From Gemmatimonadota bacterium (GTDB lineage Bacteria > Gemmatimonadota > Gemmatimonadetes > Longimicrobiales > Gaopeijiaceae): 64,000 nt of DNA. Made by a program: the position numbers and the translations under genes. Shown piece by piece: positions 1 through 27,349 of this stretch; within the stretch, counting starts at the first letter, position 1; the number at the start of each line of letters is the position of its first letter. The stretch is from the NCBI GenBank assembly GCA_015664885.1, contig DQPL01000039.1, positions 1 through 64,000 of the forward strand. The letters are read 5' to 3'. The notes under the pieces were generated by a model, which was given only the letters and a program-made list of their open reading frames with translations, had not been told where the DNA came from and did not search any database.

Positions 1-3000
1 AAAAAGGCGGCGCGCCGGACGCCATCGCGGCAGCCGCTAGCTGCGCCGCCGCCGGCGCGAAGGCTGCGGCCGCGGGCGGCACGGGCGCGGGCACCGGAGT
101 GGACGGCGCCGCAACGAGTGACGCGGAGGCGGGCAACGGAGACGCCTGTGCTGGCGGCACGGCCGGCTCCATCTGCGGGCCGCGCCAGCGGATGTGGAAA
201 GGGTCGCCTCCTATGGAAATTCGGAGTGCAGACGAACCTTCGCGCAGGACGCTGCGATGGCCGAGCGCTCTGGTCTCCACGCCGTAGAGCGGCTGCAGGT
301 CCACCGGGACCCGCTCTGCGATGAGCCGACCCAGCAGGTGCAGCAGCGAAGACACGTCACCCTTGTGCGCGCTCAAGGCGGACTGAGCGACGTGCGGCCG
401 GCCCTCGAGGATGCGAGCGATCATGCGCGTGCACGAGGAGCCCGGCCCCATCTCCAGGAAGAGGCGGACGCCCTGCTCGTATGCTCGCTCGATGAGCTTC
501 GGGAAGTCGAAGCCGCGCACCGCTTGCTCGAGAATGCTGTCGGCCGCGCTCTCGCGGGTCACCTCGTAGACGTCTCCGGCTGCGGCGCTGAAAAAGCGCA
601 CTCCAGCGGGAGCCGTCGTCGGGAAGAGGTGGAAGTCGTGGTACTCTTTGGCCACGGGTTCGGCCACGGCGCAGTGCACCGTGGGCACGCCTTCCAGCGC
701 GTGGAAGTTGCAGTGCAGGGCGTCCACCACCGCGGCGACGCGTTTGCGGTCGCCTCCGATGACGCATTCGGCCGGTGTGTTGATGATAAGCAGGTAGACG
801 CGCTCCTCGGCGTCCAGTACGCCACGCACCGCCGCGGCTGCTCGATCGACCACGCCGGTGACCCAGTCCACTTCCTCGAACTCAGTCAGACCCCAACTCT
901 TGCGGATGCTGTCGCAGTTGCCCGCCAAATCGTCGGTGAAGAGCGAGCTCTCCATGAGTCGAGCGAGCATCATTTCTCGGTCTCGCCAGGCGCGTAGCGA
1001 GAACAGCCCTGTGGGTTCTCCCAGGCTGTAGCCCAAGACGCTGCCTGGCTCGACGCCGAAGGAGCGCACGAGGTCGGACACCACCGTGCCCAGCGCGACC
1101 TGCGCGATGATGAAGGCGCGCTCGTCATCGCCAAGGTCCTTGCTGGACGCCGCGTTCCAGAAGCGATCAGGCAAGAGTTGCTGCGGAAGGTACAGAGTCT
1201 CGGCGTCTTGCCTGCGAGCGATCTCCGGCCACTCTACGGCCAGCTCGCGACCCATGCCGGTATAGTGGTTGCCCGACCCTGGGAAGACGAAGGCGAGCTC
1301 CCTCCGACCGCCCAGCGGGTGGGGATTCCACAAGATGCGGTTCGAATCCGGCAGGGCACTGTCGTCGGCCTCACCACGTAGCATGGCGCCCGCCGCGTCT
1401 GCCAAGCGCAGCAGCTCCTCGCGGGAGCGCGCAACGAGCGACAGGCCGAGCTTGGCCTCCGGACTTTGCCCCACTTTCCGGAACCAATCGCGCGCGAGCA
1501 ACTCGATGGCTTCGGTCTCGTGGCGCGCGTGGGACGCGAGGGCGGCGAGCCTCGCTCCTAGCAGCGAGACGTCGTCGCCTTCTACGGCGAAGAGTGCCTC
1601 GCTGCGCGCCCCCAGCGGTTGGCGCCGCTCGGGGAGCGTGGCTCCGCCCTTGCTCGCCTCGTGCTCCTCGAGCACGAGGTGGCAACAGCCTCCGTCCACA
1701 CCGAGTGTGCTCACACCCGCGCGGCGGGGGCCGTCGGCCCGGTTTCTCAGCCAGTACTGGGGCTCCTTCGCGAGCAGGAAGTCCCTGGGCGACAGGTCCG
1801 CGCGCACCGACCGCAACCCTCGTACAGGCGGCAACACCTCCTGGTACAGGCAGAGCGCTGTCTTGACCGTCGACGCGAGCGCCGAAGCAGCGCCGGCGTG
1901 TCCGACGTCGGCCTTCACGCTGCCCAGGTGCCGCACCGGCGCCAAATGGCGTGGTGAGAAGAACGAGCACAGCGCCTCGGTCTCGATGCGGTCCTCGATA
2001 TGGTTGCCGCTCCCGTGGGTCTCGACGTAGCCGACCAGGGCGGGGTCGAGATCCGCTTCTTGATAGGCGCGTTCGAGGGCTCGCGAATAGGTGTCGGGCG
2101 TGGGCATGGGCCGCTGGGCCGAGCCTCCCGAGTTGGCGCCGAATCCGCGGATCACAGCGTAAACACGGTCCCCGTCGCGCTCGGCATCCTCCAAGCGTTT
2201 GAGTACCACTGCCGCGGCTCCCTCGCCTACTACCGTACCATCCGCGTCCGCGTCGAAGGGGCGCGCGCGACCGCTTGCCGAGTAGTGGTGGAGCGCATGC
2301 GTGGCCAGCACCGCGCGCACATCTCCCGCGAGATCCACTGCTCCTACCAGACAGCTATCCAACTCGCGCTCTTGCAGCGCACGCACCGCGACCTCCAGCG
2401 CATGCATGCCTGAAGTCTCCTCGCTGGAGATCGTGTAGCTTGGACCGCCAACGCGAAACTCCCGCGCGATGCGACTCGCGACGATGCCGCCCAACGCGCC
2501 CATAGTGCGGTTGGCGGTCAGGGGCGGCACAGTGTTGTCGCGCACGCCCTCGTCCGCCGCCCAACGGAAATGGAAGTTGGTGGTATTGAGGTCTAGCGCG
2601 ATGCCGATGAAGACGCCGGAGCGTAGCCGCTCCCCGCCCTTGAAGCCCGCGTCATCGATGGCGTTCGCCATGACATTGAGCATGAGGAGCTGCTGAGGAA
2701 GCATCTCCTCCAACTCCCTCGGCGGAATGCGGAACCGACCCTGAGGAATGTCCAAGCGATCGATGTAGTGGCCACGAAAATCGTTGGCGTGTAGCCCTAG
2801 GCCCTCGAACCAGTCGCACTCTGTGGCACCCCACCAGCGCGTTGGCGTGGTGGGCTGTATCTCCGGTTCGCCGCCGAGCACACGCTCCTGAAAGGCCCGC
2901 AGGCCGACCCAAGGGCCGAAGTGAGCGTCCATGCCCACGATGGCGATGGGGTCGGTGCGCGGTGCTTGCGCGGATACCGACGCCTGCGCGCCCGGCCGCC

Positions 3001-4327
3001 ATTCCTCCAGAAGCACATGGGCGTTGATCCCGCCGAAGCCGAACGCGCTGATGGCGGCACGTCGAGGTACCTCCTCGGAGCGCCGCAGCCAGGGCTGGCC
3101 TTGTGAGAGGACCCGGAAGGGACCCGAATTCAGGCCCTCGTCCACCGGTGTCTCGAAGTTGGCGGTCGGCGGTAGCGTCTCGGACTCCAAGGCGAGCAGG
3201 ACCTTTGCCAGTCCAGCGGCAGCGGCGGCTGTGAGCAGGTGGCCCACGTTGGACTTCACTGACCCGATGACACAGGGCCGCTCCTGGGGAGGAACCTCGG
3301 CCCAGAGTGCTTGCAGGCTCCGGAGTTCTGCTTTGTCCCCGGCGGGTGTGCCCGTGCCGTGGCATTCGATCAGGTCCACATCCTGCGGTGTCCAGCCGGC
3401 CTGCTCGTAAGCGGCCCGCATCGCGCGCAGCTGTCCCTCGAAGTCCGGCGACATGAGGCTGCCGCCCACGTCGTTGCTCAGGCCGATGCCGCGGATGACG
3501 GCGTGGATCCGGTCTCCGTCGCGCTCGGCGTCTTCGCGTCGCTTGAGCAGGAAGAGCCCCGCGCCCTCCCCGACCACGAGGCCGTCCGCGCGGTGATCGA
3601 AAGGCGAACACCGGCCGCTGGGTGACAGCGCCCGCAACTGGCTGAAGCCCATCTGCGTGTAAAGCGATGACGGCCGCGACACCCCTCCCGTGAGCATGGC
3701 GTCAGCGCGTCCCGATGCGAGCTCGTCGCACGCGAGCTTCAATGCGTAGAGCGATGACGCGCACGCCGCGTCCAGTGTGTAGCTGCCACCACGCAGGCCC
3801 AGCGCGTGGGCCACCAGGCCCGCGGGAAGTCCCGCCACATATCGATTGAGGGGCTCGGTGGCGTCGGGCTCAGGGCCGACTTGCCCGAGGCGTTCCGCGA
3901 AGCTCCGGCCCAGCGTCTCCAAGGCCAGCGCGGAGGCCGCATCGGTGGGCAGAACGATGTTGCCGAAGATGACGCCGGTGCGATCCCGGTCGAGGGTCTC
4001 GGGCAGGCCGTCCGCGAGGGCCATCTGAGCCGCGCGCAAGGCCACGCGAAACATGGGGTCCAGCCGATCCAGGAGATCTGCGTCGATACTCAGCTCGTCG
4101 ACATTGAGCTCGATGTCGAGCAAGAGGCCGGCGCGCCGCGCGTAGACCCGATCCGCGGCCGCGATCTCGGGTGAATACGCATCGTCTGGATCGAGGGACC
4201 AACGGCGAGCCGGGACTTCTACGGTGGCGTCCTTACCGCTCGCGATGTTGGTCCAAAAGTCCTGCGGGTTCTCGGCGCCGGGAAAGACTCCCCCGAAGCC
4301 AACGACAGCTATGTCGAGGCGATTCAG
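1..4327 (-). CDS. PUFA synthase-like protein, KS-CLF-AT (3' end beyond window)
   Basis: This is the third gene of the pfa-like operon. It is open from position 4327 to the left edge (about 1,440 residues) and incomplete at its C-terminus. Reading the minus strand shows three domains. The first is a ketosynthase with the DAACASS active site (Cys about residue 189), an ECHGTGT motif and a SNVGH motif. The second is KS-like, but its active-site Cys is replaced (SSEETSG, about residue 634), as in chain-length factors. The third is an acyltransferase with PGSGNHYTGMG and GYSLGE (Ser about residue 1101). The visible sequence ends in an Ala/Pro-rich linker. KS-CLF-AT is the N-terminal half of myxobacterial Pfa3, where dehydratase domains follow; those would lie outside the window. 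The start is CTG, overlapping the pfaA stop (CTGA), with GAGG 7 nt upstream; no ATG, GTG or TTG fits before the KS domain. Domain calls are strong; the product is unknown. Confidence 0.85.
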   Translation of the reverse strand, partial: MNRLDIAVVGFGGVFPGAENPQDFWTNIASGKDATVEVPARRWSLDPDDAYSPEIAAADRVYARRAGLLLDIELNVDELSIDADLLDRLDPMFRVALRAAQMALADGLPETLDRDRTGVIFGNIVLPTDAASALALETLGRSFAERLGQVGPEPDATEPLNRYVAGLPAGLVAHALGLRGGSYTLDAACASSLYALKLACDELASGRADAMLTGGVSRPSSLYTQMGFSQLRALSPSGRCSPFDHRADGLVVGEGAGLFLLKRREDAERDGDRIHAVIRGIGLSNDVGGSLMSPDFEGQLRAMRAAYEQAGWTPQDVDLIECHGTGTPAGDKAELRSLQALWAEVPPQERPCVIGSVKSNVGHLLTAAAAAGLAKVLLALESETLPPTANFETPVDEGLNSGPFRVLSQGQPWLRRSEEVPRRAAISAFGFGGINAHVLLEEWRPGAQASVSAQAPRTDPIAIVGMDAHFGPWVGLRAFQERVLGGEPEIQPTTPTRWWGATECDWFEGLGLHANDFRGHYIDRLDIPQGRFRIPPRELEEMLPQQLLMLNVMANAIDDAGFKGGERLRSGVFIGIALDLNTTNFHFRWAADEGVRDNTVPPLTANRTMGALGGIVASRIAREFRVGGPSYTISSEETSGMHALEVAVRALQERELDSCLVGAVDLAGDVRAVLATHALHHYSASGRARPFDADADGTVVGEGAAAVVLKRLEDAERDGDRVYAVIRGFGANSGGSAQRPMPTPDTYSRALERAYQEADLDPALVGYVETHGSGNHIEDRIETEALCSFFSPRHLAPVRHLGSVKADVGHAGAASALASTVKTALCLYQEVLPPVRGLRSVRADLSPRDFLLAKEPQYWLRNRADGPRRAGVSTLGVDGGCCHLVLEEHEASKGGATLPERRQPLGARSEALFAVEGDDVSLLGARLAALASHARHETEAIELLARDWFRKVGQSPEAKLGLSLVARSREELLRLADAAGAMLRGEADDSALPDSNRILWNPHPLGGRRELAFVFPGSGNHYTGMGRELAVEWPEIARRQDAETLYLPQQLLPDRFWNAASSKDLGDDERAFIIAQVALGTVVSDLVRSFGVEPGSVLGYSLGEPTGLFSLRAWRDREMMLARLMESSLFTDDLAGNCDSIRKSWGLTEFEEVDWVTGVVDRAAAAVRGVLDAEERVYLLIINTPAECVIGGDRKRVAAVVDALHCNFHALEGVPTVHCAVAEPVAKEYHDFHLFPTTAPAGVRFFSAAAGDVYEVTRESAADSILEQAVRGFDFPKLIERAYEQGVRLFLEMGPGSSCTRMIARILEGRPHVAQSALSAHKGDVSSLLHLLGRLIAERVPVDLQPLYGVETRALGHRSVLREGSSALRISIGGDPFHIRWRGPQMEPAVPPAQASPLPASASLVAAPSTPVPAPVPPAAAAFAPAAAQLAAAAMASGAPPF

Positions 4328-7300
4328 GAGCTGACCTCGAGGGGCAGTCGATTGCTGCGGAACGTGCTCGTCAGCCCCTCGTCGATGGTGTTCTCGCACC
4401 CCTCGAAGCGCGCGACCAGCCGGCCGTCGCCATCGAGGAACTCCAGGTCGGCGAGCACCCGGGTCTCGTCACTCTTCGTGATGCGAGCCACCACGTGGGC
4501 ACCGTCTTTCGGGAACGCTCCGTATTGGCGGTAACTGGCCGCCGCACATGGCAGCGAAGGACCGGCGCTGTGGACCCCCGACCAGAAGGTGAGAAGTTGG
4601 ATGCCCACGTCGAGCACCAGCGGATCCGTCAGCCAGCGCCGACGGAACGGACGCTCCATCCACTCGCTCGGCGGCGGGGCCGCCGACGCGTCGGCGACGA
4701 CGCCCTCCGGGGAGCAGGTCTGCACACGTTCGATTCCCTGAAGAGCAGGGCCGTGGAATAGGTGATCGCGGTACGTCTCGGCTGCGGTCTTCTCATAAGC
4801 GGGTCCCTGCGGAGCGTTCAGTTGGGGCTCGCCCTCCGGCAGGGCCTCGGCCAGGAGGATCTCCGCCCTAGCGTGCAGGAACTCCCTGTCGTCGCCCTGA
4901 GTGGCGCGCAGCTCCATCTCAACGCGGTAGTAGCCTTCCTCGTCCTTACGCGCACTACCTGCGTGGATCTTCAGGCCCAGGCTGGCGTCCGCGTCCAAGA
5001 CCAAACCCTTGAGCAACTTGAGGTTGTCGAAGCCGTGGAACTTCAGGCCGGGATTGCCATGCAGCGCGCCGTGCGCGAGCCATTCGGGCAGCATCGCCAT
5101 GGGCACGACGGCCTTGCCGTCCAGGACGTGCGAGCGCAGGAAGGAACAACTCGCTACGTCGATGTCCTCTTGAGCCACCAGCGGCAGGGAGGAGGAAGCG
5201 TCAGGACCCATTGGTCCCGTTTGTGCGATAGGCTCAGGGCTCACAGCGTCGGCCGGGGCGGGGCCCAGGACAACACGCTCGACGTCCGACTCGTCAGTAG
5301 CCAACTCGCGTAGCAGGTGGTCCGCACCCTGGGCCAGCGGAATGAGTGGCACTCCTTCGCTGGCGAAGGCCGCCCTGAGCGATTCGTCCACCATACCGCC
5401 TTCCCAAGGTCCCCAATTGAGGCTCAGGACCCTGCAATCGGGAAGACGCCGGGCCTCTTGCTGGGCGACTTTGTTGAGCACCTCGTTTGCGATCGCGTAG
5501 TCCACCTGACCCACGCGACCATACCGTGCGGTCGACGAGCTGAACAACACGAGGGCGCGCAAGGCGTCACGGTCCACTGCCTCGAGCAGGTTTCGAAGAC
5601 CGGTCACTTTTGGCTCATAGACCTTCTGGAAACTTTCGGCCGTCTTGTCGAGGATGTGCTGGTCGGCGAGTACGCCAGCCCCGTGCACTAGGACCCGAAC
5701 GGGGCCGTGGAGCTCACGAATCGAGGAGAGAGCGTCGCTTACGGCCAATGCGTCAGTCACGTCGACCTGCATGTAGCGTACCGTCGCGCCCGTATCGTTC
5801 ATCCGCTCGAGGTTGGTGCGGATCTCCCTCTCGGCGCGGATTCGCTTGTACATGTCGCCAGCCTCGCGCGGCGATGGCGCGTCGCCGCGTGCGAGCATGG
5901 CCTGCTTGATTTCCGCCTCGGTCCCGAGCTTCGCTAGCCACTCGGGCTCGGCTTCCGGCTCCGGGCTGCGACCGAGTAGCGCGAGCGTCGGCTGGCACGA
6001 TTTCGCAAGCGCCAGAGCGACCTCCGCGGTGACGCCTCTCGCGCCGCCACTGAGCACTACCACATCGCCCTTGTCCAGGGGCAGGGATCCGTTGGCGGAC
6101 GGGAGTGACCCGCCTACCAGCTCGAGCACGCTACGGCCGGTAGCGCTCAAACCCACTTCCACGGGGCCGGCGCGGAACAGCTCGGCAACAATGGCGCGCG
6201 CTGCGTCGGAATTTTGCAGGTCTGGTGCCAAGTCGAGTGCGCGGCAACGCACCTCAGGCCACTCACCAGCGGCTGACTTTGTAAGGCCGGCAAAGCCCCC
6301 GGAGAGCGGGTCGGCAATCTCGTTGCCCGTGGTGCCGAATGCCCCATCGAGGCGGGAGGCGCTCACTAGGAACGCTCCGCCCTTGAGGCCAGCGGTACGT
6401 AGGCCGTTGCCGGCCGCCTGGACCACCTGGAGCGCACCCAGCAGATCCTCGTCCGACGCTCCGTCGCGCGGGGGAAGGATGACGACACCCACGACAGCCT
6501 CATTGCTCGAGCCGTTCAGCGACTTCGCCGACACGGCGCGTGGCTGGTAACCCTCGCCCTCGAGAAGCTTTAGGATCTCCGACGCCAACTCCGCGTCTCC
6601 ATCGGTAATCCAGATCGCGGCTCCGGCAGCCGGCCGAGTAACCTCCTCTTCGGGGGCACCGTTGAAGTCCCGCGACCGCAGCACGTACCGCTGCAGCGGT
6701 CTCAGGGCTACTTCCTCCACCTCGGCCTCCGGGTCCGCGGCGACTGCCTGCGTCTCCGCCGCCAATGCCACGGTCTTCACGGCGGGCGACGAGACCGTGA
6801 CCTGTGCCTCGACCACCCCTGGCGTGGGCTCGCTCGAGGTCACCGGTGTGGCGCCCTCTCCGGGGATCAGGTCGAGCAGCGACTGGAGTGTGCGCAGCGT
6901 GCCCAGCTGATCGGGGCCGACCTTGGGCGCGTTGGGCAGCTCGTCCTGCAGCGCGGACAGGATCTCGACACGCTTGATGGAATCGATGCCCAGATCCGAG
7001 TCGAGCTCCATTTTTAGCTCGAGTACTTCCGCAGGGTATCCTGTCTTGTCGGACACGATGTCCAAGAGGATCTTCGCCACGTCTAGATCAGGCGCCGCCG
7101 CCGGAGCCACAGCGGCTGTGACCGGTTCTGGCGCCTCGGCGGGCACGACGACGGCGGCCGGCGATTCGGCCGGGGCCGGTACCATGCGCTCGAGGCTGGG
7201 AGCGGCGTAGACCGACGGGGCGGCGGGCGCAGGCAGAGACATCAACGGCTGTGCACTCGAGACAGCGGGGGCCACAGGAGGTGCCGGTGCCACGGGCACG

Positions 7301-10300
7301 CCCATCGACATGTCCAGGAAGCGCTGCTGTTGCTGGAGCAACGTGTGGTAGTGCTGCTGAGAGGCATTCTGCCCCTCGAGGAACTGCTGATGCAGCTGCG
7401 CTGTCTGCTGCTGGAGGTGCTGAAGCACCGCCATGTTCTCCTGAGTGATCCGCAGGGCTTCAGCCACCGAGCCTGCTACGGGAGCCGCCACGGGAGCGAC
7501 CGGTACGGGCAGCGGAGCAGGGGTACTCAGCAAGGCCGGGGTACCCGGCAAAGCCGGGGTGCCCTCCCCGTTCGGCGCTCTGTCCTCGGTGTGCGCGCCG
7601 TCGGCCCGTGCGGGCTGTGCTGCCTTGTCATTGTTGCGTGGCATCGGTTCTCTCTTGCGGGTCCGGATATTGGCTCCCCCCACCTGATAGGTGAGCGCCG
7701 CGCGGCCGGCTATCGCCGGAGCAGCGGGCGGGTCGAAGGAAGCGTCCCAGGGCTGCAGGTCTATGGTGTGGCCGAGTGAGCCGATCTGGGCCAACACTCG
7801 AGCTAAATCGCGGATGCCCGAGCGCGATCCGTGGCTCGCGTCGAGGGCGAACGCGTGGTGAGGCTCGCCGTCAAGGACGGAGTCGACGAGCCCGCTGAGG
7901 TGCCCGTGCGGTCCCGTCTCCACGAAAGTCCGTACGCCGTCCTTGTGCATTCGGCTGACAAGCTCATCGAAGAGTACAGGGCGCGCGAGCTGCCCGGCCA
8001 GAAGCGCTTTGGCCTCCTCGGCGTCGGCCGGGTACGACTTGCCGGTGCTGTTCGCGTAGACGGGCACCGGGCCTTCGGCTAGTTCGATTCCCTCCAATGC
8101 GCTGGCGAGCGGTGCTTCGGCTTCAGAGACCAGCGGGGAGTGGAAGGCAGCAGAGACGGGCAGGCGACGCGCGTCGATCTGACGAACACGAAGTGCCCCT
8201 GATGCGCGCTCGATCTCGTCGGTGGCACCAGAAAGAACGACCTGTGCCGGCGCGTTGCGGTTCGCCACCACTAGGTCGAGAGACTCGGCGGCGATGACCT
8301 TCTCCACCTCCGCGAGGCCTGCCCGCACCGCGAGCATGGCCCCCCGGCCACCGTCCAGTTCGCCCATCACGCGACCGCGGAGTCGAGCGAGCGCGTGGAA
8401 GTCCTGCCTCGTCAGCCGGCCGGCAGCGCACAGAGCGCTGAGTTCGCCGAAGCTGTGGCCGGCCGTCGCCGCAGGCGTGACCCCGAACAAACGAAGAACC
8501 GCGTCGGCCCCGAGGCTGACGGCTCCGATTCCCGGCTGAGCGTTTGATGTGTCCCGCAGCGCGTCTTCTTGTAGCTGCCGCGCGTCGTGATCGAAGGCGG
8601 GATGCGGATAGACTACGTCACTCAAACGGTTCTCGGAGTCTCCGGCGTCGGCCAGCTCGAGGGACGCGCGCATGCTCGGGAACTGACACGCGAGGTCGCG
8701 GAGCATGCCTACGTATTGAGAGCCTTGGCCGGGAAAGAGAAACGCCAGATCGCCCGCCGCTGGGCCACGACCATAGTAGACGCCGTCCGGCGTGGACCAC
8801 GTCGTCTCTTTGTGGGCGTCGAGCAGGCTGGTGACTCGAGTTGCCAGAGCGGGCGCATCGGTATGGCCCTTCTCGACGACGAGCAGTAGTCGCTCGGCGT
8901 CATCTGCACGGAAGGCCTTACGGGAGATCTGGCCCAACTCACGAACGGCGTCCCAGTGCGAAGCCTCACCCAGACGTGTCAACCATTCCTTGAGGTTGTG
9001 TTGCGTAGGTGCGCTGAAGGCAACGATTTGCACATCTCCGTCCCAATCAGTCTCCTCGTTCGCGCTGCCCTCGCTGATGTGCTCCTGCAGTACGCAGTGA
9101 AAGTTGCTGCCACCGAAGCCGAAGGAACTGACCGCTGCTCGCCGAGGATGGCCGTCGGGCGCGAGCCAAGGGCGTTTGTCCGTGTTCACGTAGAAGGGCG
9201 AGGCGCCCGGCGCGAGCTGCGCCAACGGCTTTTCGACCTTCAGCGTGGGCGGCAGCACTTTGTGGTGAAGCGCCATCGCTGCCTTGATCAGGGATGCGGC
9301 GCCCGCTGCGGCCTTGGTGTGTCCAATCTGAGACTTCACCGAACCGAGCGCACACCACGTGCCCTCCGCCCCGCTCTCACGGTAGACCGCAGTGAGGGCT
9401 TCGGACTCGGCGGCGTCTCCTGCGACCGTACCGGTACCGTGGGCCTCGACGAGTTGCACGGTATCGGGCGTGGTGCCGGCACGCTGGTAGGCCCGGCGCA
9501 GCGCCTTGGCTTGACCCAACGAACTCGGCGCATAGATGGCGTTGCCCTTGCCGTCGCTCGATGTGCCCAGACCACGGATCTCGGCGTAGATGCGGTCGCC
9601 GTCGTGGACTGCGTCGTCCAAGCGCTTCAGGACGAGGATGCCCACTCCTTCACCGAGGATGGTGCCGTCGCCTTCGTGGTCGAAGGGACGTGCATTGCCG
9701 GTGGCGCTCAACGCGGGCGTCTTCGAGAAGCACATGTACATGAAGATGTCGTTGAGCGTGTCGACACCGCCGGTGATGGCCATGTCGCAGCGGCCGTCGG
9801 CGAGCTCCATGGCGGCTAGGTGGAGTGCACTCAGCGAACTGGCGCAAGCCGCGTCCACGACGCAGTTGGTGCCACCCAGGTCCAGCCTGTTCGCGATCCT
9901 GCCCGCGACGACATTGCCGAGAAGGCCTGGGAACGACGCCTCTTGCCACTCGACGTAGGAGTCCGAGATGCGGCGCACCACGTCCTCCGCCACTTCACCG
10001 TCGACGCCAGATTCAGCCAACGCCCTACGCCAAAACGGGTGTCCGAGGCGCGCACCCAGGGAAATCGTTAGTTCCAGGGTCCCAGTAACACCCATCAGCA
10101 CACTGACGCGATCCCGATCGAAGTCCCGATCAGGGCCGTAACCCGCGTCGATGAGTGCCTTGCGCGCCGTATAGAGCGCCAGGAGCTGCGCGGTATCGGT
10201 CGCCTCCAGGGCGTTCGGAGCGATGCCGAAGTCCAGTGGATTGAAATCGACGGGTGGCAGGAACCCGCCCCGCGCCGCGTAGGTCATGTCGGGCGCTTTG

Positions 10301-10488
10301 GGATCGGCGCTGAAATAGTCGTCCGGTGACCAGTGCGTATCGGGCACGTCCGTGATGGCATCTACGCCATTGCGGATGTTGTGCCAGTACGCTTCCAGGC
10401 CGTCTGCCTCGGGGAAAATGCAGGAGATGCCGATGATGGCCAACGGGACGTCCCGCTCGCGTGGCTCAGGAGACTGTCGATTGTTCAC
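4324..10488 (-). CDS. pfaA: PfaA-like multidomain synthase, KS-MAT-ACP-KR-DH
   Basis: A 2,054-residue iterative type I PKS/fatty-acid synthase subunit. Domains in order: ketosynthase (about 10-470; catalytic Cys215 in DAACASS, His350 in EAHGTGT, His390 in the QIGHTKAAAG motif); malonyl-CoA acyltransferase (about 578-900; GQGSQ, Ser678 in GHSFG); a Pro/Ala- and Gln-rich linker (about 945-1135); one acyl carrier protein (about 1135-1205; Ser1169 in LGIDSIKR); ketoreductase (about 1290-1740; GGARGVTA, Tyr1663); and a C-terminal hotdog dehydratase (about 1770-2045; His1786 in HVLDGKAVVP). Order and motifs match PfaA/Pfa2. The unusual point is a single ACP, where PUFA synthases carry about 4-9 in tandem. 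It starts with GTG overlapping the pfaD stop (GTGA) and its own stop overlaps the next gene. The product may be a polyunsaturated or otherwise modified fatty acyl chain; its nature cannot be read from sequence. Confidence 0.93.
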   Translation of the reverse strand: MNNRQSPEPRERDVPLAIIGISCIFPEADGLEAYWHNIRNGVDAITDVPDTHWSPDDYFSADPKAPDMTYAARGGFLPPVDFNPLDFGIAPNALEATDTAQLLALYTARKALIDAGYGPDRDFDRDRVSVLMGVTGTLELTISLGARLGHPFWRRALAESGVDGEVAEDVVRRISDSYVEWQEASFPGLLGNVVAGRIANRLDLGGTNCVVDAACASSLSALHLAAMELADGRCDMAITGGVDTLNDIFMYMCFSKTPALSATGNARPFDHEGDGTILGEGVGILVLKRLDDAVHDGDRIYAEIRGLGTSSDGKGNAIYAPSSLGQAKALRRAYQRAGTTPDTVQLVEAHGTGTVAGDAAESEALTAVYRESGAEGTWCALGSVKSQIGHTKAAAGAASLIKAAMALHHKVLPPTLKVEKPLAQLAPGASPFYVNTDKRPWLAPDGHPRRAAVSSFGFGGSNFHCVLQEHISEGSANEETDWDGDVQIVAFSAPTQHNLKEWLTRLGEASHWDAVRELGQISRKAFRADDAERLLLVVEKGHTDAPALATRVTSLLDAHKETTWSTPDGVYYGRGPAAGDLAFLFPGQGSQYVGMLRDLACQFPSMRASLELADAGDSENRLSDVVYPHPAFDHDARQLQEDALRDTSNAQPGIGAVSLGADAVLRLFGVTPAATAGHSFGELSALCAAGRLTRQDFHALARLRGRVMGELDGGRGAMLAVRAGLAEVEKVIAAESLDLVVANRNAPAQVVLSGATDEIERASGALRVRQIDARRLPVSAAFHSPLVSEAEAPLASALEGIELAEGPVPVYANSTGKSYPADAEEAKALLAGQLARPVLFDELVSRMHKDGVRTFVETGPHGHLSGLVDSVLDGEPHHAFALDASHGSRSGIRDLARVLAQIGSLGHTIDLQPWDASFDPPAAPAIAGRAALTYQVGGANIRTRKREPMPRNNDKAAQPARADGAHTEDRAPNGEGTPALPGTPALLSTPAPLPVPVAPVAAPVAGSVAEALRITQENMAVLQHLQQQTAQLHQQFLEGQNASQQHYHTLLQQQQRFLDMSMGVPVAPAPPVAPAVSSAQPLMSLPAPAAPSVYAAPSLERMVPAPAESPAAVVVPAEAPEPVTAAVAPAAAPDLDVAKILLDIVSDKTGYPAEVLELKMELDSDLGIDSIKRVEILSALQDELPNAPKVGPDQLGTLRTLQSLLDLIPGEGATPVTSSEPTPGVVEAQVTVSSPAVKTVALAAETQAVAADPEAEVEEVALRPLQRYVLRSRDFNGAPEEEVTRPAAGAAIWITDGDAELASEILKLLEGEGYQPRAVSAKSLNGSSNEAVVGVVILPPRDGASDEDLLGALQVVQAAGNGLRTAGLKGGAFLVSASRLDGAFGTTGNEIADPLSGGFAGLTKSAAGEWPEVRCRALDLAPDLQNSDAARAIVAELFRAGPVEVGLSATGRSVLELVGGSLPSANGSLPLDKGDVVVLSGGARGVTAEVALALAKSCQPTLALLGRSPEPEAEPEWLAKLGTEAEIKQAMLARGDAPSPREAGDMYKRIRAEREIRTNLERMNDTGATVRYMQVDVTDALAVSDALSSIRELHGPVRVLVHGAGVLADQHILDKTAESFQKVYEPKVTGLRNLLEAVDRDALRALVLFSSSTARYGRVGQVDYAIANEVLNKVAQQEARRLPDCRVLSLNWGPWEGGMVDESLRAAFASEGVPLIPLAQGADHLLRELATDESDVERVVLGPAPADAVSPEPIAQTGPMGPDASSSLPLVAQEDIDVASCSFLRSHVLDGKAVVPMAMLPEWLAHGALHGNPGLKFHGFDNLKLLKGLVLDADASLGLKIHAGSARKDEEGYYRVEMELRATQGDDREFLHARAEILLAEALPEGEPQLNAPQGPAYEKTAAETYRDHLFHGPALQGIERVQTCSPEGVVADASAAPPPSEWMERPFRRRWLTDPLVLDVGIQLLTFWSGVHSAGPSLPCAAASYRQYGAFPKDGAHVVARITKSDETRVLADLEFLDGDGRLVARFEGCENTIDEGLTSTFRSNRLPLEVSS
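4325..4338 (-). promoter_or_regulatory. Shine-Dalgarno and CTG start of the KS-CLF-AT gene
   Basis: On the minus strand GAGG (4335-4338) lies 7 nt before CTG (4325-4327), whose last two bases belong to the pfaA stop TGA (4324-4326). The reading frame of the KS domain (LNRLDIAVVGFGG) begins right there, and the upstream frame offers no ATG, GTG or TTG nearby. The same 4-base overlap type (GTGA) joins pfaD to pfaA, so termination-reinitiation coupling is likely. A frameshift fusion or a sequence error is the alternative. Confidence 0.55.
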
Positions 10489-12203
10489 GGCAGGTGCATC
10501 TCCAGCTGTGACAGAGTGCGCGGCAACACTTGCTGCTCTTCCGGGCTCAGAATCAAGCCCTGGCTGCGCAACGTCTGTATCCGACCCAATACGGCGGCGC
10601 CGTAAAGGAGATTCAGACTGACGGTGACCACGCTCCGGTTGCTCGCTTCCGCGAGGAAGCTATCCTGAACCCAGGCATTGAAAGCACCCATGGCGGGACC
10701 GCACCAAATCTGGTAGTCGAGGGTTCTCGACGGCTCGCCCGTGTTGGCCCAAATAGAAGTTTGGCCGAGGTACCAGCGGAACGCCAGCGCCATGCGGTGC
10801 TTGGGGTCGATCTGGGCACGCTCCCATTGCGTGGGGTCGCGCTCGAGGAAGTACGTGCGCACGTCCTCGAGAACCTCTTCGAAGCTCTTCCTGAAGACGG
10901 TTTCTTCGAGCTTCTGGCGCTCATCCTCCGGGATTTCGTCGATCGAGTCGTAGGCCCTGTAGAGCTCGTACAGGCGACCGCCCCGCATGGCGAACATGGT
11001 GCCGCGCTTGAGCACCTGCACCTTGACGCCCATCTCGAACATGTCGGCGGCCGGCGCCATTGCGATGTCTGCTTGCTCGGAGGCGGCCAGCATCTCTCGG
11101 ACCGCTGGTGACGTTCCCGCTTCTACGCAGGCTTGGTTCACGGAGCCCAACAGGACGTAGGTAGCGCCCATGGCGAATGCCGCTGCCGCGGCATGCGGGG
11201 TCGCGATGCCGCCAGCGGCTCCCACGCGCAAGGCCTCGGGGTAGGCATATTCGCGCTGAATGCGGTCGCGCAAAGCGATCATGGTCGGCAGCAGGCCCAA
11301 CGCGGGCCGATTGTCGGTATGCCCAGCGCTATCGGCTTCGGCCGTGAGGTCCTGGGCGACGGGGATCTCTCTCGCGAGGCGCGCCTGGGTTTCCGTGATG
11401 TCCCCGCGGGCAACGAGCTCCTGCAGGAACGCCTCGGGTGGCGGCGAGAAAAATCGGGTCGCCACCTCCACCCGCGAGGCCTTGGCGATGACCCGGTTCG
11501 GGGTCACTACTCTGCCGTCGGTATCGCGGTAGATGCCGCTCACCCGGTAGCGAATGAGGGGAAGGGTGAGGCGCATGTATGCCGAAGCCTCCACCAAGCG
11601 AACACCGTGCCGCAAGTAGAGGTCGACCACGCCGTGCTCGACGTCGGGCTCGTTGGGACTGTGAATGAGGTTGAAGCCGAAGGGCGCTCCACCCAGGGAC
11701 GACGTCAGGCGGTCGATGGCCGCTTCTACAGTCCTGAGCGGGAGGCCCGCGGCGCCGAAGATGCCCAGCATGCCCGCGTGGCTCATGGCTTCGACCACTT
11801 CCGCGGATCCGATGCCGTTGGCCATCGCGCCGGCCACGCAGGCGAGCTTCAGCCCGTGCGCTTTACGAAACTCTGGGTCCCCGAGGTTGTCCAGGCGCAG
11901 AGGTGCGGCGTGGCCCACGATGGCGCGGTCGCCCTCGTAGAGTCGCACATCGGTCCCGAAACGTGTCTCCCCTCGCACGGCCACCGCTCTCCGAAGTCCC
12001 GGCTGAGCTACTTCATCGCCGCCCAGCACGTACACCGGCCGTCGAATGTCCGCGATGCTCTCGCGCAGAGCGTCCGCGCCGGGCAGCACGTCGGATACGT
12101 GCCCCGACCAAGCGCCCAGCACGGCGGCAGTCGGCTCGACAGGTCCGGTCGCCTGGCTGGGTCCACCAGTCCGGTGCGGAGACGTTCGTGTCAGAGGGCT
12201 CAT
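10485..12203 (-). CDS. pfaD: PfaD-family enoyl reductase (NPD/FMN-type)
   Basis: A 572-residue flavin-dependent trans-acting enoyl reductase of the PfaD/2-nitropropane-dioxygenase family, the ER partner of PUFA synthases. Visible family features are the conserved GHTDNRP stretch (about 294-300), the glycine-rich FMN phosphate site (VGAAGGIATPHAAAAAF, about 327-343) followed by YVLLGSVNQACVEAGTS, and the long C-terminal region ending in the LDYQIWCGPAMGAFNAWV segment typical of PfaD. It is first in the operon, as pfa1 is in myxobacteria, whereas pfaD is last in marine gammaproteobacteria. The ATG start at 12203 faces a divergent thioesterase across a 213-bp gap that must hold both promoters; I could not pick convincing -35/-10 boxes there. 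Its stop overlaps the GTG of the next gene by four bases. Confidence 0.93.
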   Translation of the reverse strand: MSPLTRTSPHRTGGPSQATGPVEPTAAVLGAWSGHVSDVLPGADALRESIADIRRPVYVLGGDEVAQPGLRRAVAVRGETRFGTDVRLYEGDRAIVGHAAPLRLDNLGDPEFRKAHGLKLACVAGAMANGIGSAEVVEAMSHAGMLGIFGAAGLPLRTVEAAIDRLTSSLGGAPFGFNLIHSPNEPDVEHGVVDLYLRHGVRLVEASAYMRLTLPLIRYRVSGIYRDTDGRVVTPNRVIAKASRVEVATRFFSPPPEAFLQELVARGDITETQARLAREIPVAQDLTAEADSAGHTDNRPALGLLPTMIALRDRIQREYAYPEALRVGAAGGIATPHAAAAAFAMGATYVLLGSVNQACVEAGTSPAVREMLAASEQADIAMAPAADMFEMGVKVQVLKRGTMFAMRGGRLYELYRAYDSIDEIPEDERQKLEETVFRKSFEEVLEDVRTYFLERDPTQWERAQIDPKHRMALAFRWYLGQTSIWANTGEPSRTLDYQIWCGPAMGAFNAWVQDSFLAEASNRSVVTVSLNLLYGAAVLGRIQTLRSQGLILSPEEQQVLPRTLSQLEMHLP

Positions 12204-12416
12204 TCGGTGTCCAGTCGGCTCTTTGAGCCTGGTGCCTTACGGGAGCCTAATTTGTCAGTGTTGACGCGAGGATGCGACCCCTGCAAACGCTTCCTCCACA
12301 ATCGGATAGGTCGCGCAACCGTCCTCTCGCTCCCGCGTCACGAATGCCTGCATAAATATGTGCTGCGGTGCGCCCTTCGCTGGCGCTGATGCCTTTGCGG
12401 CCGTACGACTCTCCCG

Positions 12417-12854
12417 GTGACCAACTCGCCCCCCCACTCCACCTTGCTGTCGGACCTGCCGGTGCACGTCACAGTCCCCGTGGCTTGGGGGGACCTCGAC
12501 GCGCTCCAGCACGTCAACAACACCGTTTATTTCCGCTGGTTCGAGACCGGGCGCGTGGCATTGTTCAGGCGAGTCGGCTGGCTCGGAGAGAGGCGCGCGG
12601 ATGGCGTTGGGCCGATTTTGGCGCGAGCGAGCTGCGTATTTCGCCTGCCGGTCGGGTTCCCCGACACCATGGAGGTGGGCGTGGGCGTCACCGAACTGGC
12701 CGAGGATCGCTTCACCGTCGTGTACCGCATCGTGAGTGACCAGTTGGGTGCGGTGGTGGCCAAAGGCGAGGGACGCATCGTGTGCTTCGACTACAACGCG
12801 GGAAAGAAGACGCGGTTGCCTGACGCGGTACGAGAGGCGCTCGAGGCTCTCTGA
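12417..12854 (+). CDS. Acyl-CoA thioesterase, 4HBT hotdog family
   Basis: A 145-residue single-domain hotdog thioesterase. The N-terminal segment WGDLDALQHVNNTVYFRWFE (about 24-43) carries the catalytic Asp and HVNN motif of the YbgC/4-hydroxybenzoyl-CoA thioesterase family, and the length fits. The start is GTG at 12417, just before the conserved region. It is divergent from the pfa-like operon. PUFA synthases need a thioesterase for product release and discrete hotdog thioesterases can do this, so it may release the product of the neighbouring synthase; this is inference from position. It could equally be a generic housekeeping thioesterase. Confidence 0.85.
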   Translation: MTNSPPHSTLLSDLPVHVTVPVAWGDLDALQHVNNTVYFRWFETGRVALFRRVGWLGERRADGVGPILARASCVFRLPVGFPDTMEVGVGVTELAEDRFTVVYRIVSDQLGAVVAKGEGRIVCFDYNAGKKTRLPDAVREALEAL

Positions 12855-12928
12855 ACCGAGGCGGCTCGGCATGCGACTCCTAATCGAGAAGCCCTGCCAG
12901 TCACCCCAGAGCCAGCCGCCGACCCGCC

Positions 12929-13649: not shown

Positions 13650-16457
13650 CTAATGGGAAACCGCGGCCTCCTCTTCTGTTGGCACGGGTGCCGCAGCCTC
13701 CTCCCTGCGGAACTCGTCCCTCGGAGCGGCCGGCATAGGACGCCAGCCCGCTTCCTGAACGGCCGCCTGCGCGGCCGCGAAGCGGGCGATCGGGATGCGG
13801 AATGGAGAGCAACTCACGTAGTCGAGGCCCATCTCGTGGCAGAACTCGACCGACTTGGGGTCGCCACCGTGCTCGCCGCAGATCCCGATCATCAGGTCAG
13901 GTCGAACGCCACGCCCGAGCTCGACCGCCATGCGCATGATCTTGCCCACACCGGGAATGTCGAGGGTCGCGAACGGGTTCGCGGGCAGCACGTCGTGCTC
14001 CATATAGTGCACGAGAAAGCCGGACTCGGCATCGTCCCGTGAGATACCGAACACGGTCTGGGTGAGGTCGTTGGTTCCGAACGAGAAGAACTCGGCGGTC
14101 GAGGCGATTTCGTCGGCGGTAAGGGCGGCGCGCGGGATCTCGATCATGGTGCCGATCTTGTACGGGACCTCCTGTCCCTCTTCATCCATCACTTCACGAG
14201 CCTCGGTTTCGACCAGGCGACGCTGCTGGCGAAACTCGTTCACGTGAGAGATCAAGGGGATCATGACCTCTACCTTCACGTCAACGCCTTCCCGCATGCA
14301 CTGCGTCGCCGCCTGAAAGAGAGCGCGCGTCTGCATGCGCGTAAGTTCCGGCAGCAGCATGCCTAGACGGACGCCCCTCGTGCCCAACATCGGATTCGTT
14401 TCCAGGAGCGTCTCTGTCCGCTCGAGGAAGTCCTGCTTCGCACGGATCTCATCGAGCGTGTCGTCGATCTCCTGGAGTGTGGCCAGGTGTTGGAGTCTGA
14501 GCTTGAGATCGGCCAACTCGTGCAGCAGCTCCTGGTGGTCGGGCAGGAATTCGTGCAGCGGCGGGTCCAGCAGACGAACCACGACCGGCAGGCCGTCCAT
14601 CGCCCGGAAGAGCCCTTCGAAGTCATTGCGCTGCAGGGGCAGTAGCTTGTCGAGGGCCTCGTCGCGCTCCAAGTGGTTGCGGGCCATGATCATTTCCCGC
14701 ATGACCGGGAGCCGATCCTCCTCGAAGAACATGTGCTCTGTGCGGCACAGCCCGATGCCCTGTGCTCCTAGGGCACGGGCACGGCGGGCATCATCGGGAT
14801 AGTCCGCATTCGCCCAAACTTCGAGCGTCCTGAACTCGTCCGCCCAGCCCAGTAGCTGGGTGAGCCAAGAGTCCTGTACGTCCGGAACGACGGTCGGTAG
14901 CGCACCGAGATAGACTTCTCCGAGCATGCCATCGATCGAGATCTCGGTGCCTTCGCGGATCGTGATGTCTCCCATGCGCGCTTCACGATCGACCAAATCG
15001 ATCTCGAGCGACTCTACTCCCACGACGGCCGGCTTGCCGAACTGGCGCGCGACTAGCGCAGCGTGGCTGGTCCGTCCTCCCCGGCTGGTAATGATGCCCT
15101 GCGCCGCGAGCATTCCGTGAACGTCGTCGGGCCTGGTCTCCGGTCGGACCATGATCACCGCTTTCCCGTCCTCCCGGGCCCATCTCTCTGCCGTGTCCGC
15201 GTCGAACGCCACGATGCCTACCGCGGCTCCGGGCGACACGTTCAGACCCGACGCGATCAGCTGCGCCTCGCTCCTCGCGTCCTCATCGAACTGAGGATGC
15301 AGGAAGAAGTCCACTTGCTCGGGGCTCACCCGCAGCACGGCCTCCTCTCGCCCGAGCAGCCCCTCGTCGACCATGTCGACGGCGATGCGAACCTCCGCTT
15401 GGGCAGTGCGCTTGCCGTTCCGCGTCTGGAGCAGCCACAGCGTTCCGTGCTCGATGGTGAACTCGAGGTCCTGCATGTTTCGGTAGTGAAGCTCGAGCTT
15501 GTCCGCGATCTCACAGAGCTGCTGATAGGCCTCTGGGAAGCGTTCTGCCATCGCGCTGATGTCCAGGGTCTTCCGAGTCCCGGCCACCACGTCTTCTCCC
15601 TGCGCGTTCACCAAAAAGTCCCCTGCCAAGCCCGGCTCCCCCGTAGACGGGTTTCGGCTCATCACGACCCCCGTGCCCGAGGTCTCCCCCATGTTGCCGA
15701 AGACCATCGTCTGGATGTTCACCGCCGTACCGATGTCGTGCGGGATCCCAGATGCGTTGCGATAGTCTACGGCGCGCTTCCTATTCCAGGATTCGAACAC
15801 CGCTTCGGTCGCCGCGCGCAGCTGTTCCAGCGGATCCTGTGGAAAGGGAGCGTGGGTGTGAGTCCTGACCAGGTCCTTGAACCGCTGCGTGAGCGCGGTC
15901 CAGTCCTCTGCATCGAGGTCAGAGTCCGAGGACACTCCCGCGGCCAATCGCTTTGCCGCGATGACCTGCTCGAACACTTCAATGTGCATGCCGCGCACCA
16001 CCGTGCCGAACATCTGAATCAATCGACGGTACGCGTCGTATACGAAGCGTGCGTCGCCGGTGAGCTCGACCATCCCACGGGCGACTTCGTCGTTCAATCC
16101 CAGGTTCAGGATCGTGTCCATCATGCCAGGCATCGAGAATTTCGCGCCCGACCGACACGAAACGAGCAGCGGTCTCGCCGGGTTGCCAAACTCCTTTTCC
16201 GTGGTCGCCTCGATGCGCTGCAGGGCCTCGATCTGTTGTTCCCAGATATCCGCAGGGAATTCGCCCTCGACACCGAGGTATGCGATGCACGCTTCGGTCG
16301 TCACGGTGAAGCCTGGAGAGACCGGGACCTGAATCCGCGTCATCTCTGCCAGATTCGCTCCCTTGCCGCCGAGCAGCCCGCGCACTGCCTCCCAGTCACC
16401 GGCGGAGGCTTCTGCTGCTTCGAGCTCCGTGAACAGGTATACCCACTTCCGATCCAT
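13650..16457 (-). CDS. ppdK: Pyruvate, phosphate dikinase
   Basis: A 935-residue PPDK that interconverts pyruvate + ATP + Pi and PEP + AMP + PPi in the cytoplasm. Seen: the ATP-grasp start LLGGKGANLAEMTRIQVPVSPGFTVTTEAC, the swivelling phosphohistidine domain with GGRTSHAALVARQFGKPAVVG (usual Met replaced by Arg), and the C-terminal PEP/pyruvate TIM barrel ending with GICGEHGGDPKSVEF, including the catalytic Cys. Length is close to the family norm. The start at 16457 (MDRKWVYLF) is preferred over an upstream ATG at 16535 because a promoter lies between them and the family begins with this segment. A C-terminal Ala/Glu-rich tail of about 25 residues is extra. Confidence 0.97.
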   Translation of the reverse strand: MDRKWVYLFTELEAAEASAGDWEAVRGLLGGKGANLAEMTRIQVPVSPGFTVTTEACIAYLGVEGEFPADIWEQQIEALQRIEATTEKEFGNPARPLLVSCRSGAKFSMPGMMDTILNLGLNDEVARGMVELTGDARFVYDAYRRLIQMFGTVVRGMHIEVFEQVIAAKRLAAGVSSDSDLDAEDWTALTQRFKDLVRTHTHAPFPQDPLEQLRAATEAVFESWNRKRAVDYRNASGIPHDIGTAVNIQTMVFGNMGETSGTGVVMSRNPSTGEPGLAGDFLVNAQGEDVVAGTRKTLDISAMAERFPEAYQQLCEIADKLELHYRNMQDLEFTIEHGTLWLLQTRNGKRTAQAEVRIAVDMVDEGLLGREEAVLRVSPEQVDFFLHPQFDEDARSEAQLIASGLNVSPGAAVGIVAFDADTAERWAREDGKAVIMVRPETRPDDVHGMLAAQGIITSRGGRTSHAALVARQFGKPAVVGVESLEIDLVDREARMGDITIREGTEISIDGMLGEVYLGALPTVVPDVQDSWLTQLLGWADEFRTLEVWANADYPDDARRARALGAQGIGLCRTEHMFFEEDRLPVMREMIMARNHLERDEALDKLLPLQRNDFEGLFRAMDGLPVVVRLLDPPLHEFLPDHQELLHELADLKLRLQHLATLQEIDDTLDEIRAKQDFLERTETLLETNPMLGTRGVRLGMLLPELTRMQTRALFQAATQCMREGVDVKVEVMIPLISHVNEFRQQRRLVETEAREVMDEEGQEVPYKIGTMIEIPRAALTADEIASTAEFFSFGTNDLTQTVFGISRDDAESGFLVHYMEHDVLPANPFATLDIPGVGKIMRMAVELGRGVRPDLMIGICGEHGGDPKSVEFCHEMGLDYVSCSPFRIPIARFAAAQAAVQEAGWRPMPAAPRDEFRREEAAAPVPTEEEAAVSH

Positions 16458-16496
16458 AAGCCTGGAATCCTGGGCCAGGGGGAGAACGCTACGAGA

Positions 16497-16526
16497 GGTA
16501 TACCGGACTCGCCGCAGACACGTCAA
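16497..16526 (-). promoter_or_regulatory. Sigma-70-type promoter of ppdK
   Basis: On the minus strand TTGACG (16521-16526) and TATACC (16497-16502) are separated by 18 bases. Transcription would begin near 16490 and leave about 33 nt of leader before the ATG at 16457. The fit to -35/-10 consensus is good for this GC-rich DNA; not tested. Confidence 0.5.
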
Positions 16527-16552
16527 GTTGTACACTAAGGGGGACTAGGAGC

Positions 16553-16681
16553 ATGGGGATCACCGGATACGTACTACTCGCCTTACTCGCTGTCCTGAGC
16601 GTTTATTTCGCGACGATCTACAACAACCTCGTTCGCCTCAAGCACACGGTCACGAAGAACTGGTCGAACGTTTCGACTCTG
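16553..16681 (+). pseudogene. LemA-family remnant (N-terminus only)
   Basis: From the ATG at 16553 (AGGAG just upstream) about 43 residues match the start of LemA proteins: one transmembrane helix (GYVLLALLAVLSVYFATIY) followed by NNLVRLKHTVTKNWSNV, the conserved beginning of the LemA helical bundle. After SNV the frame runs into unrelated sequence and similarity moves to another frame, where a different protein's C-terminus starts. LemA proteins are normally ~180-200 residues, so about three quarters is missing. The 73-residue open frame probably has no function. Confidence 0.75.
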
Positions 16682-16956
16682 ACGGTGACGGGCGCGTGGA
16701 CATGGAGGAGTGGGACCACGCGCGCAGGGAAGCCGAGGCGATCGTGGAAGACCACGTCGCCAAGGCGGCAATGAAGCCCGACGTCGATGTCTTGATGAAG
16801 TCGGAGGAGGACCATCCGTTCATCCCTTCTACAAAGAGCCAGGACGAGCTCACTCAGGTCTATCGCTGGAAGGCCACGGGCGGGCTCATCCTTTTCGTCG
16901 CCGGGTTTGGCGCGCTCGGTGTGACGCTGACTGCCCGTTTCGGGCCGACCCCATGA
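16676..16956 (+). pseudogene. C-terminal remnant of an EF-hand-like membrane protein
   Basis: In the frame shifted from the LemA remnant the sequence reads RFDSDGDGRVDMEEWDHARREAE, an EF-hand-like Asp-rich loop. A hydrophilic stretch follows, then one transmembrane helix ([19 protein letters not shown]) and the stop at 16954-16956. Proteins with this layout and a GIDE-type domain often follow lemA, which would make this the 3' end of the next gene. The join lies near 16672-16682 (AACGTTTCGAC). An ATG at 16696 allows an 86-residue product, but nothing suggests it is a designed gene. The GIDE identity is an inference from the tail only. Confidence 0.6.
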
Positions 16957-16963
16957 GGTCTTC

Positions 16964-18208
16964 GTGATCGCCGTAACACGTAGAGAAACGGTCTCGGTCG
17001 ACGTCGCAGGCGTGGCCATCGGTGGAGGTGCGCCAGTGGTCGTCCAGTCGATGACAAATACCGACACAGCCGACGTTCACTCCACGGTCGATCAGATCAG
17101 GCTTCTCGCCGACGCCGGAAGTCAGTTGGTGCGCGTGACGGTCAACAATGACGAGGCCGCGCAGGCGGTGCCCGAGATCGTGAGCCGACTGCGCGGCGAC
17201 GGCTACTCGACTCCGATCGTGGGCGACTTCCACTACAACGGCCACCTGCTGCTCACCAAGTATCCGAAGGCCGCGGAGGCGCTGGCGAAGCTGAGAATCA
17301 ATCCCGGGAACGTCGGGACCAAGCGCCGTGACGAGAACTTCACCCAGATCATCAAAGTCGCGATCGAGCACGACAAGCCCGTGCGCATCGGTGTGAACTG
17401 GGGATCGCTGGACCAACGGTTGCTCACCGAGCTCATGGACGCGAACGCGCTGGAGGAGGCCCCCAAGGAGGCTCGGGAAGTGCTGCTCGAGGCCATGGTC
17501 GAAAGCGCGCTGCGCTCGGCGGCGCTGGCGGAAGAGACGGGGCTGGGCCACGACCGCATCGTGATCTCGGCGAAGGTCTCCACGGTTCGCGATCTCATCG
17601 CGGTGTACCGGATGCTCGCGCGGCGAGGCGACTATCCGCTGCACGTCGGCCTGACCGAGGCGGGTCTGGGCATCAAGGGAATCGTGGCCACAACCGCCGG
17701 TCTGGCTCCCATCCTGCTGGATGGGATTGGCGACACCATTCGTGTGTCGCTGACGCCTGCTCCGGGAGGCGACCGCGCCGAAGAGGTGCGCGTAGCTCAA
17801 CAGGTGCTCCAGTCTCTGGGCATCCGTCACTTCGAGCCCCAGGTGACGTCCTGCCCCGGGTGTGGCCGCACCACGAGCACGTTTTTCCAGAAGATGGCGC
17901 AGGACATCACTGACTACATCCGGGACATGATGCCCGAGTGGCGTGCCCAGTATCCGGGCGTCGAGGAAATGGACGTCGCGGTGATGGGCTGTGTGGTGAA
18001 CGGACCCGGTGAATCGAAGCACGCCAATATTGGGATCTCGTTGCCGGGTACCTTCGAGGATCCCAAGGCGCCCGTCTACATCGACGGGGAACACTCTACG
18101 ACGCTCAAGGGCGACGGACTCGTGGACGAGTTCAAACAGATCCTGTCCGATTACGTGAAGAGAACGTACGCGCCTCGTGTAGCAGCGGGGACCGCGAGCG
18201 AGGAGTAA
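16964..18208 (+). CDS. ispG: (E)-4-hydroxy-3-methylbut-2-enyl-diphosphate synthase (GcpE)
   Basis: A 414-residue [4Fe-4S] enzyme of the MEP isoprenoid pathway that reduces MEcPP to HMBPP. Seen: the N-terminal barrel ([22 protein letters not shown] is recognisable, with the QSMTNTDT motif), [14 protein letters not shown], and the C-terminal cluster-binding cysteines at about 296 and 299 ([10 protein letters not shown]) and 342 (GCVVNGPGE). Length fits the bacterial two-domain form. The start is GTG at 16964, 7 bases after the remnant's stop. Nothing else of the MEP pathway is nearby. Confidence 0.97.
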
Positions 18209-18357
18209 GAGCCTGTCTTGGCGCACCGGAAGGATCGTCTACAACTGTGGGTGCAACGGTCTCCTCAGGCTTGTGCGTCCTATGAGCGATCTTTCACGGA
18301 TGGTCTGACGGATGACCCACCTTATGAATCGAAAATCCCGCACGTCGAGGACGTAAC

Positions 18358-20960: not shown

Positions 20961-20963
20961 CCA

Positions 20964-27200: not shown

Positions 27201-27349
27201 CACTAGCGCTTGTGTTGATCGGTGGCCTTCTGTCGTCGACTCTTTTTGTACTGACCATTACTCCGGCCGCGTATCATGTGCTGGAGCGGGGAAAGGCTAG
27301 TCGTGCCGCGGCGCGGGTGGAACGCGACGTCGTGGTGGCTCGGGCCTAG
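24227..27349 (+). CDS. RND efflux permease 2 (AcrB/HAE1 type)
   Basis: A 1,040-residue RND permease with the same fold as its upstream neighbour but only distantly similar. TM4 is MGFGLIVDNSIVVLENVY, TM10-11 is FGIVVNNAILLVDHVN, and the periplasmic porter domains are complete. It has the usual short TM6-TM7 link. It begins inside the stop of permease 1 and is last in the adaptor-TolC-RND-RND operon. Two different RND subunits with one adaptor suggest a heterotrimer or two alternative pumps sharing the other parts. Confidence 0.93.
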   Translation: MIRMSLRRPVAVAMTYTAVALLGLRAWQNIPVEMLPDTQLPQLTVTGTWRGASPETLEAFLTAPLEATIQQISGVEKIVSESFEQQGLGTAEIRIEFDRDTDMDFARLDLSERLATLEEELPPGVDRVQVSQYVPEEFQQQSQPFLYYTFTGPYTREALRQHLEDVVQDELGQVNGVALVQVFGGRDRRLEVNLDEAKIAALGLDPRDVGQSIRDLDLVREAGAIRQGDDELAITIVNRPANADDVRTAVITAVGGTPVRVSDVASVHDTYEEAQSYSRIAGRPSVGFTIVKGVGVNTVRVADAVKARLAQLERLSPFGTEFDLVYDESEDIERQLTDLRRRAGFSAIVIFVVLLGFLRSFRSAALIFATIAFSVLIALNLIYFGGLTLNLLTLMGLAMGFGLIVDNSIVVLENVYRRWQRGEEAFSAAEGGAREVVLPILASTATTLIVFVPFLYLQGELRVYYVPLAIVVALTLIASIFVAFSFIPALSARFLQTGRGTPKRGVEARQPLYVRFYSDVVSFTVRRPWFAMSVVVMCFGGSYHLFNTYVNTWALWGGGFGSRTYIQVNITLPRGSNLERTDQLVRYFEDRVAQIPEVEQYTADVRAQRGRMEITFPDSIENTQIPVAIKEQMVAYSHTFTGADVRVYGFGPSFYGGGGSAPNYGIQVLGYNYEQVRDIAESLGAKLERMSRVQEVDTNSSSNRFNRDKASEFVVRVDRNRLAQHDLTVEQLVVRMNQAVGGSAQLGTVKLGGEEVQYQVKLEDNVDMDVLALKETLIDTPGGRRIRLGDVMSIEPRDVLARIRREDQQYERTVAYEFRGPQKLGDLVHESIIEATVVPPGYTVQKGNTGFSIRQEERTQIWLVITLALLLVYMVTAALFESLLQPLCVILTVPMALIGVYLIFFYSEASFTREAYVGVIMMFGIVVNNAILLVDHVNGVRSREPGLPLPDAIVKGTLERVRPILMTTATTVLGLLPLVLFGEGTGSNIWDALALVLIGGLLSSTLFVLTITPAAYHVLERGKASRAAARVERDVVVARA

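Follow-up and report, generated by a model that had tools for sequence, protein, structure and literature searches.

The window (the whole analysed stretch of 64,000 nucleotides, bases 1-64000 of contig C88) most likely carries the 5' half of an eight-gene operon, pfaD-pfaA-pfaBC-oleA-oleB-oleC-oleD-pfaE, of a Gemmatimonadota genome (3.96 Mb in 136 contigs, 99% complete). By analogy with published systems, this pfa-ole operon very probably builds a short polyunsaturated acyl chain, two of which are joined by OleA on the way to a long polyunsaturated hydrocarbon.

Positions 2-12203 are filled on the minus strand by three genes, which encode a PfaD-type enoyl reductase (ER), a PfaA-type protein and a KS-CLF-AT protein; this is the order given in a preliminary description of the same DNA. 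The genes and their domains are as follows:

10485-12203, minus strand: pfaD (pfa1), enoyl reductase of 572 aa (TIGR02814; FabD_helical_ins and NMO in Pfam)
4324-10488, minus strand: pfaA (pfa2), KS-MAT-ACP-KR-PS-DH protein of 2054 aa (TIGR02813; Pfam domains)
9235-10446, minus strand: KS domain of PfaA, active-site stretch VDAACASS (PF00109/PF02801, residues 15-418)
7891-8742, minus strand: MAT domain of PfaA, GHSFG (PF00698, residues 583-866)
6865-7068, minus strand: single ACP of PfaA, LGIDSIKR motif, LGIDSIKRVEIL (PF00550; own ACP HMM)
5401-6060, minus strand: KR domain of PfaA (PF08659, residues 1477-1696)
4393-4812, minus strand: PS-DH domain of PfaA (PF14765, residues 1893-2032)
2-4399, minus strand: 5' part of pfa3 (pfaBC), KS-CLF-AT, 1466 codons (open frame running off the contig; Pfam)
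3152-4315, minus strand: KS domain of Pfa3, LDAACASS (PF00109/PF02801, residues 29-416)
2183-2953, minus strand: CLF of Pfa3, KS-like without the cysteine, site ISSEETSG (aligned to the KS-CLF structure 6riw)
713-1291, minus strand: AT domain of Pfa3, PfaB-like, GYSLG (PF00698 25 bits, TIGR02816 108 bits; both under cut-off)
1-39, no strand assigned: junction with the remainder of pfa3 and oleABCD-pfaE (39 bases exactly identical to the end of contig C79)

PfaD scores 624 bits with TIGR02814 and PfaA 1398.8 bits with TIGR02813, both above the curated NCBIfam cut-offs (449.25 and 1010.1, respectively). Based on these profiles the synthase is of the Pfa/secondary-lipid type, as had been proposed from the sequence before. 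The Pfam domains along PfaA follow in the order KS, MAT, one PP-binding domain, KR and PS-DH, and the GTG start of pfaA and the stop of pfaD overlap by 4 bases. Concerning the third protein, 6riw, a structure of Moritella PfaC, is the best match among solved structures over the KS and CLF domains together, with 416 bits and before any PKS (the query was the protein of G020, a second species of the same genus). The KS-CLF pair appears nearer to the KS-CLF of Pfa synthases than to FAS or trans-AT PKS.

The truncation of the third gene is an assembly break at the contig end and the gene is not missing, because contig C79 ends in exactly the 39 bases with which the window begins, and the pfa3 reading frame runs across the join. 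The operon is divided between the contigs C88 and C79; in G020 pfa3 is uninterrupted, and all eight genes lie on one contig, with about 80-94% protein identity to the window operon. With the GTG at 4399 as start, the complete pfa3 product has 2310 aa; where translation really begins is uncertain, possibly near 4324. The remaining dehydratases and an acyltransferase had been expected outside the window, and a leftward extension with a count of DH and AGPAT domains had been suggested. When FabA-like domains were sought in this genome, three matches came up within a single open frame at the C79 end, which places the dehydratases as expected; the complete Pfa3 has no AGPAT, no acyltransferase family being found after the dehydratases. 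Three FabA matches are also found in the Pfa3 of Geomonas and, from this comparison, are normal for this Pfa group.

On C79, pfa3 is followed on the same strand by OleA, OleB (alpha/beta hydrolase), OleC (AMP-binding), OleD (3beta-HSD) and a phosphopantetheinyl transferase (PPTase) of the ACPS type, and the genes of the operon overlap slightly or stand small gaps apart. OleA is a thiolase in which the catalytic cysteine, glutamate, histidine and asparagine are all kept, and the B, C and D families come after it in that order. Its best structure match among OleA-type structures, which are entries for Xanthomonas OleA, is 3s21 (E about 1e-57). The ACPS-family PPTase at the end of the operon reads LRTILG, HGKP and FNVAH, compared with the motifs hRxhLS, x(G/D)xP and (F/S)NxSH; the second fits, while the first and third fit in part. 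Its fit to the Pfa P0 and P1b motifs is loose, which counts against the main explanation.

Concerning the surroundings of the operon, an efflux operon (18358-27349) consists of an HlyD-type adaptor, an outer membrane protein and two tandem AcrB-family pumps. In G020 these upstream genes are likewise kept next to the pfa operon, over the part of the locus that was retrieved. A pyruvate phosphate dikinase gene (13650-16535) lies between the two operons in the window, and tblastn gave no match for it at the corresponding place in G020. The open reading frame at 12255-12872 was considered as a PfaT-like thioesterase and rejected, as it is without a family match and the similarity at the same position in G020 is weak. 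Also, contig C67 of G000 (15878-18386) holds a small cluster of an ACP, a KS and two FabA-like proteins, away from the main fatty acid genes.

Among known systems, the closest plan, judged by gene content and order, is that of the pfa-ole cluster of Geobacter bemidjiensis ('Type I', Shulse and Allen 2011), and it is not specifically myxobacterial. Both share the order pfaD-pfaA-pfaBC-oleABCD-pfaE, with pfaB and pfaC fused as KS-CLF-AT-DH. The differences are the host, here one of the Gemmatimonadota, and the one ACP instead of 2-5; the best-segment identity of PfaA to the Geobacteraceae relatives is about 49-57%. In Shewanella oneidensis and S. pealeana (pfaABCDE plus oleABCD) a Pfa synthase feeds OleA, giving C31:9 (PMC6463001), but PfaB is a separate protein, there are several ACPs, and pfa and ole do not form one operon in every strain. 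The preliminary description had assigned the genes to the myxobacterial pfa1-pfa2-pfa3 plan. The order ER, KS-MAT-ACP-KR-DH, KS-CLF-AT-DH is indeed that of the Pfa1-Pfa3 of Aetherobacter, Minicystis and Sorangium; in the available part of the account of these clusters, AGPAT is described as peculiar to myxobacterial Pfa3, the PPTase is at a separate locus and ole genes are not mentioned (PMC8436480). Here the complete Pfa3 lacks AGPAT, oleABCD directly follows pfa3 and the PPTase is inside the operon. We rejected the myxobacterial assignment on the missing AGPAT and the presence of the ole genes, and consider it highly improbable that this is a cluster of that type making EPA, DHA or ARA.

The distribution of the arrangement was followed by a scan of species genomes, which gave 80 related loci in Geobacteraceae, Planctomycetota, Elusimicrobiota, Gammaproteobacteria, Verrucomicrobiota and others. 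Neighbours of Pfa3 were counted in the 45 loci in which the Pfa3 end is at least 1.5 kb from the locus end: OleA adjoins Pfa3 in 43 of them, once on the opposite strand (L140), and all four ole genes are visible in 29. Within the family of the window organism (58 genomes), OleA is found in five genomes, all of which belong to the eight that match PfaA strongly; in four it lies inside the pfa operon, and the fifth (G013) has a distant OleA (38% identity) located elsewhere. The related Geobacteraceae loci belong to the same KS clade and have the same gene layout. The ole-linked Gemmatimonadota G003, G039 and L062 are placed elsewhere in the KS tree than the window genus, whose own placement beyond its two species is weakly supported. 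This hints that pfa-ole was possibly gained separately within Gemmatimonadota, in a tree whose deeper branches are weak. A second pfaD-pfaA-pfa3 type is also present in the family (L053, L055, L057 and L027/L059, of genomes G005, G018, G013 and G041); it has DSIKQ ACPs, three or four where complete, is without adjacent ole genes and could possibly be a true PUFA synthase or another lipid synthase. Three loci with pfa-ole operons (L110, L111 and L123) come from MAG records titled Klebsiella pneumoniae; they group with MAGs of Gammaproteobacteria or Verrucomicrobiota and the titles are probably wrong.

The PfaA of the window contains exactly one ACP by Pfam, by motif and by an ACP HMM built from relatives, which bears out the single copy with DSIKR read from the sequence earlier. 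The several tandem ACPs typical of Pfa synthases are lacking; they are not required, and single-ACP clusters were already provided for by Shulse and Allen 2011 (PMC3098273). Based on the motif and our own HMM, most complete relatives have 2-5 ACPs. G020, the second species, at 88% identity, likewise has one ACP, as does contig L065, in which the linker is present in full between the coiled-coil stretch and the KR; a single copy also occurs in two more complete relatives, L066 (Gemmataceae) and L069 (Elusimicrobia). The linker between AT and ACP (window 7068-7710) has a glutamine-rich helical stretch, ITQENMAVLQHLQQQTAQLHQQFLEGQ, which is kept in the window and L065. Candidate extra ACPs in the Pfa3 of Planctomycetes (motif matches such as LGLESLLQLL) were rejected; they correspond to the dehydratase stretch PGSLGCESFLQLL of the window and are not reported by the ACP HMM.

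A single ACP could also arise if several near-identical copies were collapsed in a short-read assembly. In many relatives, the ACP copies of a protein have about 70-145 identical bases in common; exact stretches of up to 145 bases are long enough to mislead short-read assemblers. In the relative G005 (L053) a run of N falls exactly in the ACP region of PfaA, so such repeats do disturb assemblies. Against this, the count of one agrees across the window, the second species and L065 with the linkers intact on both sides, the contig is continuous at the ACP, and in ole-linked Gemmatimonadota of the same family the two ACPs are diverged, with just 20-33 bases in common. We therefore regard a collapse as unlikely. 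Mapped on a KS tree (86 sequences), the presence of one ACP requires at least three changes and would therefore be read most simply as repeated loss. The single ACP would then be a real, repeatedly evolved reduction which would lower throughput and leave the chemistry unchanged.

The reactions, chain length and product proposed here are carried over from published systems onto the gene content, order, co-occurrence and homology described above. PfaE would arm the single ACP, on which PfaA, PfaBC and PfaD would act iteratively on malonyl units and give a polyunsaturated acyl chain. OleA would condense two such chains head to head, OleD would reduce the beta-keto acid, OleC would close the beta-lactone and OleB would decarboxylate it to the olefin. 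Geobacter bemidjiensis, which has pfaD,A,B,C, oleA,B,C,D and pfaE in tandem, makes hentriacontanonaene, C31:9 (PMC4882568). In Shewanella C31:9 depends on pfa, and the two chains that OleA links come from Pfa, with 16:4n-3 as their predicted structure (PMC6463001). By analogy with both, a 16:4 acyl chain and C31:9 as product would be expected here. Shulse and Allen had proposed for Type I synthases that they provide the precursors of olefins (PMC3098273).

Because the Geobacter order is shared and OleA adjoins Pfa3 in 43 of 45 loci, a polyunsaturated hydrocarbon is the most likely product and is favoured over EPA or DHA, in line with the earlier remark that the product may be neither. OleA could instead be supplied by the ordinary fatty acid pathway, as it is in Xanthomonas, and the Pfa enzymes could make something else. 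The operon could also encode a PUFA synthase proper, with a long-chain membrane PUFA as main product and the hydrocarbon as a side product or derived from ordinary fatty acids. The Pfa domain set is present, and in Shewanella pealeana one enzyme makes EPA and feeds OleA (PMC6463001); the position of oleABCD within the operon, between pfaBC and pfaE, the tie of the clade to ole and the complete Pfa3 without AGPAT speak against such a synthase, and we find it improbable. Tentatively, a minimal one-ACP Pfa synthase may serve OleA alone, giving hydrocarbon and no free PUFA, with a chain possibly other than that of C31:9.

The gene order is already known from Geobacter; what is new in the hydrocarbon-forming operon proposed here is the bacterial group and the number of carrier domains, which is lower than usual. 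The known range of pfa-ole operons now includes a Gemmatimonadota genus, and the survey describes a Pfa clade closely tied to olefin genes across many phyla. Naturally occurring one-ACP forms also become available for a synthase in which yield is believed to be governed by the number of ACPs, and a direct comparison of one-ACP and multi-ACP members would bear on whether this number alters the rate only or the product too.
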